In this document: in pieces, positions 13,546 through 15,450 of the stretch | Numbering within the stretch: the first letter of the stretch is position 1 | Layout: each line of letters opens with the position of its first letter | DNA from: Dehalococcoidia bacterium | GTDB taxonomy: Bacteria > Chloroflexota > Dehalococcoidia > Lucifugimonadales > UBA3495 | Reading direction: 5' to 3' | DNA: 64,000 nt | NCBI GenBank assembly: GCA_022827095.1 | Contig: JAJDTP010000009.1 | Coordinates: forward strand, 62,001 to 126,000 | Program-made: the position numbers and the translations under genes | Notes under the pieces: model-generated | Told to the model about the DNA's origin: nothing | What the model saw: the letters and a program-made list of their open reading frames with translations, nothing else | Databases searched by the model: none

Positions 13546-14277
13546 GTGGTTACCGACGGGCCATCCGACCTTGACTTGCTGCGGCATGGGGAGATCCTGA
13601 GCTGCGACCTGACGCGGCAGGGCTCGAACTACACGTATCTGGCCGAGTTGTCCCTCGGCGACCGCTACGGCCTGGCCATCTACAAGCCCCGGCAGGGCGA
13701 GTGGCCCCTGTGGGACTTCCCCAGCGGCACGCTCTACAAGCGGGAGTATGCGGCCTACCTGCTCAGTCACATCCTGGGTTGGGATTTTATTCCGCCGACA
13801 ATCATCCGAGAAGGGCCGGGTGGCGTTGGTTCGGTCCAACTCTACGTGGACCATAACCCCCGGGAAAACTACTACACCATCACGCGTGAGGAACTGAGCG
13901 AGTGCGACGCCGACCAACTGCGCACCATTTGCTGCTTCGACCTGGTGGCGAATAACACCGACCGCAAGCCGGAGCACGTCATCCGCGCCCCCGACGGCAA
14001 GCTGTGGGGCATCGACCACGGCCTGACCTTCCACGCGGACACCAAGATCCGCACCGCCATCTGGGACTTTGCGGACGAGCCTATTCCCGATCGCCTGCTG
14101 GAGCCTTTGCGTAACCTCTGCGGACAGATACTGGCGCCGACGGGAGACGTTGCCGAGCTGCTGTCCATGATGGACGCCGCCGAGGCCCGCGCCCTGATGC
14201 AGCGGCTCCAGTGGGTGCTGCAGGAAGGGACTTACCCCGGCCTCCCGGGCTATCGCCGCCGCCGGCGACGGGGCTAG
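13546..14277 (+). CDS. SCO1664 family protein (PI3/PI4-kinase-like fold, TIGR03843 type)
   Basis: A 243-residue protein with the kinase-like motifs of this family: LAIYKPRQGEWPLWDFPSGT (nucleotide-binding Lys) near 44-63, the catalytic-loop-like FDLVANNTDRKPEHVI near 127-142 and IDHGLTFH near 154-161, where NNTDR and D-H-G take the places of the kinase HxDxxxxN and DFG. It is paired with DUF3090. GTG start at 13546. The TAG stop at 14275-14277 is formed at the edge of a family C element: only the Arg-rich tail GYRRRRRRG precedes it, so the original C-terminus may have been different. Confidence 0.85.
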   Translation: MVTDGPSDLDLLRHGEILSCDLTRQGSNYTYLAELSLGDRYGLAIYKPRQGEWPLWDFPSGTLYKREYAAYLLSHILGWDFIPPTIIREGPGGVGSVQLYVDHNPRENYYTITREELSECDADQLRTICCFDLVANNTDRKPEHVIRAPDGKLWGIDHGLTFHADTKIRTAIWDFADEPIPDRLLEPLRNLCGQILAPTGDVAELLSMMDAAEARALMQRLQWVLQEGTYPGLPGYRRRRRRG

Positions 14278-14420
14278 AGCATGTTTACAAACTGAAAATT
14301 ACCCCGTCGTTCCTGCGAAAGCAGGAACCCAGGAAATCACTGCCGGCAGAAATTTGGCCTTATTTGTACTCGCTGGATTCCCGCTTTCGCGGGAATGACG
14401 AAGTTTGTAAACACGCCCTA
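14275..14420. repeat. family C MITE-like element with 17-bp TIRs and CTAG borders
   Basis: Left end GAGCATGTTTACAAACT (14277-14293) and right end AGTTTGTAAACACGCCC (14402-14418) are inverted with 2 mismatches. The inner arms are the family C core (CGTTCCTGCGAAAGCAGGAA, and GCTTTCGCGGGAATGACG). TA flanks both ends inside CTAG. The left TAG is the stop of the SCO1664-type gene and the right CTA is the stop, on the minus strand, of the HAD gene. Confidence 0.85.
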
Positions 14421-15080
14421 GTCGCTCCCCGCCAGCAGCCCGTAGTCGAAGTGCTCCAGGTTCTCGATGATCACGTCCGCCGCCGAGAGGTCCAGGTGGC
14501 GCGTGGAATCGGTCAGCGTGCAGACCGTGTAGGCCCCCGACCCGCTGGCCGCCGCCAGGCCGATGGGCGAGTCCTCGATGGCCACGCACTCCGTGGGTTC
14601 CAGCCCCAGCAGCCGGGCGGCCTTGATGTAGATGTCGGGAGCCGGCTTGCCGTTTTCGATGTCGTCGCCGCCCAGCTTCACCGGGAATGCATCGGTCAGC
14701 CCGATCACCGACAGTTTCAGGTTCACCCACTCCCGCAGCGATGACGACGCCACCGCGATGGGCAGTCCGCGCCGTTGAGCTTCGGCGATCAACTCACGCA
14801 CGCCCGGCCGCGCCACCAGATCGGAGCGCAGCACCTCCTTTACCACCTCGTTGTAGCCGGCCAGCAACTCCGCCGGCGTCTGTGGTATCCCGCGCAGTTC
14901 CTTGACCCGCACCCAGGTCTCCTCCACCGTGGTGCCCAGCAGGTGGCGGTTGTTCTCCTCCTCCGTGATCGGCGCGGCTCCGCACCGTTCCACCATCACG
15001 TTCACCGCCTTGTGGAACAGCGGCTCGCTGTCCACCAGCACGCCGTCCATGTCGAACAATATCCCCTTGTAGCCAGGCAT
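14418..15080 (-). CDS. HAD-superfamily phosphatase, beta-phosphoglucomutase-like
   Basis: A 220-residue subfamily I HAD protein. Motif I is ILFDMDGVLVDSEPLFHK (nucleophile Asp in DMDGVLVDSE, about residues 8-16), motif II VASSS near 112, motif III with Lys in NGKPAPDIY near 145-153, and motif IV IEDSPIG near 168. An all-helical cap lies between motif I and II, as in sugar-phosphate mutases and phosphatases. The substrate cannot be read. Start at ATG 15080 with AAGGAGG upstream. Its TAG stop is created at the border of the adjoining family C element. Confidence 0.85.
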   Translation of the reverse strand: MPGYKGILFDMDGVLVDSEPLFHKAVNVMVERCGAAPITEEENNRHLLGTTVEETWVRVKELRGIPQTPAELLAGYNEVVKEVLRSDLVARPGVRELIAEAQRRGLPIAVASSSLREWVNLKLSVIGLTDAFPVKLGGDDIENGKPAPDIYIKAARLLGLEPTECVAIEDSPIGLAAASGSGAYTVCTLTDSTRHLDLSAADVIIENLEHFDYGLLAGSD

Positions 15081-15293
15081 CTCCGGTTGGTCCTCCTTGC
15101 TGTGTCTTGTCTCTCGCGGGGCGTCGCAACCCGATACTTGGCATGAGGCCCGAAACGCCGTAGACCGCACTGGCGTCGGCGCGCTGCGGACGTTAGAATC
15201 CGTTATTTTGGGCATCAGAGTCCCGCTCCTTCCATGCCGGCATTATATCAAGGAGCCCCAACACGCGGCCTGTCTGATCTTCGTAATCCCCAA

Positions 15294-15450
15294 GGCTATC
15301 GCATATGAAATCACAACGGCGTCACTCCGGCGAAAGCCGGAGTCCAGAGCCTGTGAATGGCTTGACATTCCCATGGAAGCAGCCGACTTCGGTCACTGGA
15401 TACCGGCTTTCGCCGGTATGACGATACTAAACCGTTCATATGCGATAGCC
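15294..15450. repeat. family C MITE-like element with 16-bp perfect TIRs
   Basis: GGCTATCGCATATGAA (15294-15309) is exactly inverted at 15435-15450. The inner arms are the family C core (GTCACTCCGGCGAAAGCCGG; GCTTTCGCCGGTATGACG). The gap 15081-15675 holds this element, then a promoter and a leader; no gene. Confidence 0.85.

Follow-up and report, generated by a model that had tools for sequence, protein, structure and literature searches.

The 142-bp palindromic element between the SCO1664-type and HAD genes is a MITE, and each of its borders coincides with the stop codon of one of the two flanking convergent genes. Comparison with related genomes indicates that the element split a pre-existing CTAG common to both stops and that each gene retained a stop. 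On the same sequence comparisons, the insertion parted two overlapping genes and trimmed neither of them. The causal direction is the reverse of that proposed in the initial annotation, in which the element supplies stops and so shortens genes: the element lands in stops and rebuilds them. Neutral landing at CTAG, with the stop rebuilt on each side by the TA duplication together with the G and C ends of an element mobilised by an IS5-family transposase, is very probably the explanation.

The window, the whole analysed stretch of 64,000 nucleotides, reads C14274-TA14275-14276-[G14277 ... C14418]-TA14419-14420-G14421 at positions 14274–14421. The MITE body (14277–14418, 142 bp) starts with G and ends with C, and its termini are formed by the inverted repeats GAGCATGTTTACAAACT at the left (14277–14293, plus strand) and GGGCGTGTTTACAAACT at the right (14402–14418, minus strand). 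The inverted arms 14274–14293 and 14402–14421 comprise 20 nt each and are 90% complementary. In addition to these repeats, the body is supported by covariance-model and BLAST relatives in the genus and by its folding, which lies far above that of shuffles on both strands (z −8.2 and −9.8). No ORF of at least 80 aa is confined within the element, the length of which is insufficient for a transposase. The element is short, possesses terminal inverted repeats, lacks a transposase gene and has dispersed copies and an empty site, all of which identify it as a MITE; multiple dispersed copies with target duplication were found for its family.

The gene for an SCO1664-family protein (ORF 13546–14277, plus strand, TIGR03843) ends at the left border, where the left TA duplication (14275–14276) and G14277 together form its terminal TAG (14275–14277). 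At the right border, the minus-strand ORF 14418–15215 contains the gene for a HAD-superfamily hydrolase (PF13419), the true start of which is probably internal to the ORF. Its terminal TAG, read 14420–14418, is composed of the right TA duplication (14419–14420) and C14418. The initial annotation of a MITE at CTAG with TA duplicated is thus borne out by the letters of the window and the inverted arms, and the ORF positions confirm its coordinates for the two border TAGs (14275–14277 and 14418–14420) as the stops of both genes. Just past the HAD gene, at 15295–15450 of the window, lies another palindromic element, the ends of which are different (AAGGCTATCGCATATG ... CATATGCGATAGCCCT).

The gene pair was compared in 13 relatives of the same genus, which include SAR202/Dehalococcoidia (Chloroflexota) metagenome bins. 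In 10 of the 13, the convergent pair is free of the element and the two stops overlap by 4 nt within a YTAR tetranucleotide, representing the empty site. The overlapping tetranucleotide is CTAG in 5 of these 10 (G001, G002, G003, G011, and G013), CTAA in G006 and G007, and TTAG in G005, G008, and G010. CTAG has a TAG on each strand, so that one TAG per gene remains when an insertion with TA duplication divides it. Particularly, in G001, G011, and G013, which are the closest relatives without the element, both proteins terminate at the same residue as in the focal pair, and the C-terminal tails of the focal proteins are not shortened. Of the other three relatives, G012 has a small gap between the two genes, both of which stop with TGA; in G009 the pair is non-adjacent, the HAD gene not having been found near the SCO1664-type gene; and G004 carries a different insert of ~0.75 kb between the genes. 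This insert of the sister species (L067, G004:C9, reverse strand, ~2229–2990) occupies the same kinase/HAD stop site and contains, between the repeats TTCTGTTGCATCAGC and GCTAATGCAACAGA, an ORF of ~200 aa that we take from its appearance to be GIY-YIG-like. Both gene stops are again intact.

Copies of the element are dispersed through the genus. A search of 14 same-genus genomes for the end pattern TAGRGNNTGTTGACA gave 43 exact matches, compared with 0 for the reversed control. Covariance-model matches were found in 13 of the 14 genomes, the best of them mostly in G004 (150 candidates scored per genome), and the lower-scoring matches include other repeat families with a common palindromic core. 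L006, L007, L008, L010, L015, L016, and L021 contain another MITE family, the ends of which are near CATAGGACTTACGCA. Its GTCATTCCCGCGAAAGCGGGAATCCAG core is almost identical, and a single palindromic core is thus common to several families that differ in their ends. Borders were tabulated for 77 full-length covariance-model matches; among the matches left out were several at ~77–90 bits and all of lower score. Four copies with more than 4 mismatches at both ends were dropped, giving 73 copies, two of which resemble by their flanks orthologues of a third (G000:C26:112852).

TA is present at many ends among the 77 tabulated copies, and it is flanked on its outer side by C at 85 of 125 ends. Two copies, G004:C6:60309 and G004:C3:38589, have TAG at the left and TAA at the right border; they imply the targets CTAA and TTAA, respectively, which indicates that only TA is duplicated and that there is no 4-bp duplication. 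An IS5-like 4-bp duplication of YTAR/CTAG had been considered from L003 and L025 and was ruled out by the borders of these two copies.

The position of the copies relative to genes is strongly non-random. Gene ends were assigned without annotation, from a codon score that had been trained on the ORFs of the window. In 42 of the 73 copies (40 of 71 once the two apparent orthologues of G000:C26:112852 are removed), a neighbouring gene-like ORF stops at the border TAG or TAA on at least one side, and both borders are stops in 2 of the 73. In a 400-kb sample of G004, 223 of 8174 TA sites and 33 of 141 CTAG sites are located at stops. Within G004 only, 31 of 47 copies lie at stops at the default thresholds, against 32 of 139 CTAG sites, and the count for copies is stable (31 or 32 of 47) over five threshold sets. 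When only non-internal positions are considered, the copies at stops (42/72) still exceed the CTAG sites (33/118, p 3e-5), so CTAG alone is insufficient as an explanation, which also requires selection or some other preference. Moreover, C precedes TA in 27 of 43 border stops, compared with 53 of 212 genomic TAG/TAA stops in the 400-kb G004 sample (Fisher p 3e-6).

In the mechanism that we propose, the non-autonomous MITE would be moved by an IS5-family (IS427-group-like) transposase; insertion is at a TA dinucleotide, preferably C-TA-G, with duplication of TA. Because its outermost bases are G and C, a reading frame that enters the element from either side runs into TAG. The focal copy landed in the CTAG where the convergent stops overlapped by 4 nt; duplication of TA then provided a separate TAG for each gene, leaving the genes 142 bp apart and both proteins unchanged. 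As a selection step, we infer that insertions inside genes or promoters would be lost, and that insertions at a stop, or a short way beyond it, would have little cost. Landings at stops would be common because CTAG is rare and concentrated at stops in these 63% GC genomes, genic insertions are lost and stop insertions are neutral.

The excess of copies at stops over the CTAG background, both in the whole set (42/73) and in G004 (31/47 versus 32/139 CTAG sites, robust over the five threshold sets), would also be expected if stops were targeted beyond the preference for CTAG, by the transposase itself or by coupling to translation or transcription termination. Among positions associated with a gene-like stop, the ratio of those at the stop to those lying 3–200 nt beyond it is 31:19 for the elements and 83:161 for YTAR sites, a difference in the same direction (p 2e-4). 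However, the corresponding ratio for CTAG sites is 32:33, and a preference for stops beyond CTAG is not significant in this comparison (p 0.12), while the remainder is explicable by the purging of insertions from genes and promoters; the CTAG preference and survival together are sufficient. We consider such targeting improbable, although a weak additional stop preference beyond CTAG may still be present. A wider proposal, that stop codons are the main neutral landing pad of the family, which was perhaps shaped for stop-rebuilding insertion or perhaps has a preference for stop context beyond CTAG, is rather doubtful.

The strong folding of both strands, and the position of the element as the sole spacer between genes that would otherwise overlap, would fit its retention between the convergent genes as a bidirectional terminator or as a structure at mRNA 3' ends. 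A terminator scan gave one weak match, however, which is near chance (1 versus a mean of 0.5); palindromic structure is general for MITEs; and the 10 relatives with overlapping stops have no spacer at all. Retention for this role appears quite improbable, and neutral landing at CTAG remains our preferred explanation.

Nine border-stop genes from eight other copies were compared with element-free orthologues: two genes at L107, one at L106, and one per copy in L179, L180, and L186, each of which holds two copies. L280 was dropped, as it has no orthologue of the gene at L179 copy 2, and the row 'L179 copy2 L frame', which is not a border stop, was left uncounted. Among the element-free orthologues, 36 of 37 terminate at the same residue and the remaining one is 3 aa longer; their stops are TAG in 30, TAA in 4 and TGA in 3.

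When the flanks are joined, the empty site implies a TAR stop for 33 of the 43 border stops and a Tyr codon for 10. According to end scores, the opposite end is decayed in most copies behind the Tyr-implied stops, L106 and L107 being exceptions. These two loci were selected since Tyr in their joined empty sites would mean that the stop had been created, and 5, 4 and 5 orthologues were used for their genes. The orthologues indicate that the stops pre-existed in both loci, so that one flank has changed since insertion and the flanks are not simple TSD partners. In L107 (1494–1641; G004:C45:82579–82726), both borders end both convergent genes and the implied target, GTAC, contains no stop. L107 was rejected as a case of trimming, with 9 of 9 orthologues ending at the same residue. 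In G000, the two homologous stretches are separated by a spacer of ~270 nt, and L107 is perhaps a hybrid resulting from recombination or deletion between two copies.

Trimming, in which the element inserts in the 3'-terminal part of coding sequence so that the border TAG becomes a new, earlier stop, has in its favour that the border TAGs are the present stops and that Tyr is implied for 10 of 43 of them, but it is scarcely credible in view of the element-free stop overlap in 10 of 13 relatives, the unshortened orthologues of other copies (36/37, including those of the Tyr-implied L106 and L107, with both ends well kept) and the frames +0/+1/+2 at 46/4/8 (ends with coding score >4), from which random truncation would differ. 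These sequence comparisons reject it in every case examined, contrary to the initial annotation. Its related statement, that insertion at CTAG gives stops in both directions, holds as to the letters, since TA plus the first element base reads TAG on each side; the stops, however, are preserved and none is made.

A stop codon at the border of an element is accordingly not evidence of gene truncation, and overlapping convergent genes are separable by such an insertion with neither protein altered. A mobile element can spread harmlessly in a dense, gene-packed genome when the tetranucleotide that it favours is rare and frequently belongs to a stop, and when the chemistry of its insertion re-forms the stop on each side. 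The sites at which MITEs survive also become countable, as copies in stop codons against the CTAG background.

A candidate partner of the MITE was found in its own genome. This 807-bp IS (L035) has ends reading TA-GGGCCTGTTGACATTT, which match the MITE ends, and its flanks read tTA...TAg, corresponding to a 2-bp duplication. It contains two ORFs with matches to DUF4096, DDE_Tnp_1, and the NCBIfam model transpos_IS5_3 (NF033580), for the last of which ORF B scores 127 bits and ORF A 108.7 against a cut-off of 110. L114, L137, and L120 also contain related transposase sequence, in pieces 82–88% identical, next to this end motif. From these matches, we infer that the MITE may be mobilised by this candidate IS5-family (IS427-group-like) transposase. 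DUF4096 and a DDE transposase in two ORFs, short terminal inverted repeats and a 2-bp target duplication are features of the IS427 group of the IS5 family.

IS5 of E. coli targets YTAR and duplicates 4 bp. The focal target core resembles YTAR and the candidate IS belongs to the same family, whereas the focal family duplicates TA only. Correia-type MITEs duplicate a TA target, and the focal element resembles these and RUP in being small and palindromic with TA target duplication. Our literature search found no report of MITEs or ISs lodged in stop codons. IS5/IS427 elements of Paracoccus are tabulated in PMC3281130 as mostly 832–865 bp with a DR of 2, in comparison with which the candidate partner IS is shorter at 807 bp; the terms CTAG and stop codon are absent from the main text of that paper, and a strong location at stop codons is unreported in its available part. 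Likewise, exact insertion in stop codons was not found for RUP in the available parts of PMC2229807 and PMC3049150. Pneumococcal RUP is over-represented between convergent genes, and SPRITE, like RUP, is biased to convergent gene pairs (available part of PMC3049150). RUP is tied to IS630-Spn1 (available part of PMC2229807), whereas the IS that has ends in common with the focal MITE is of the IS5 family.
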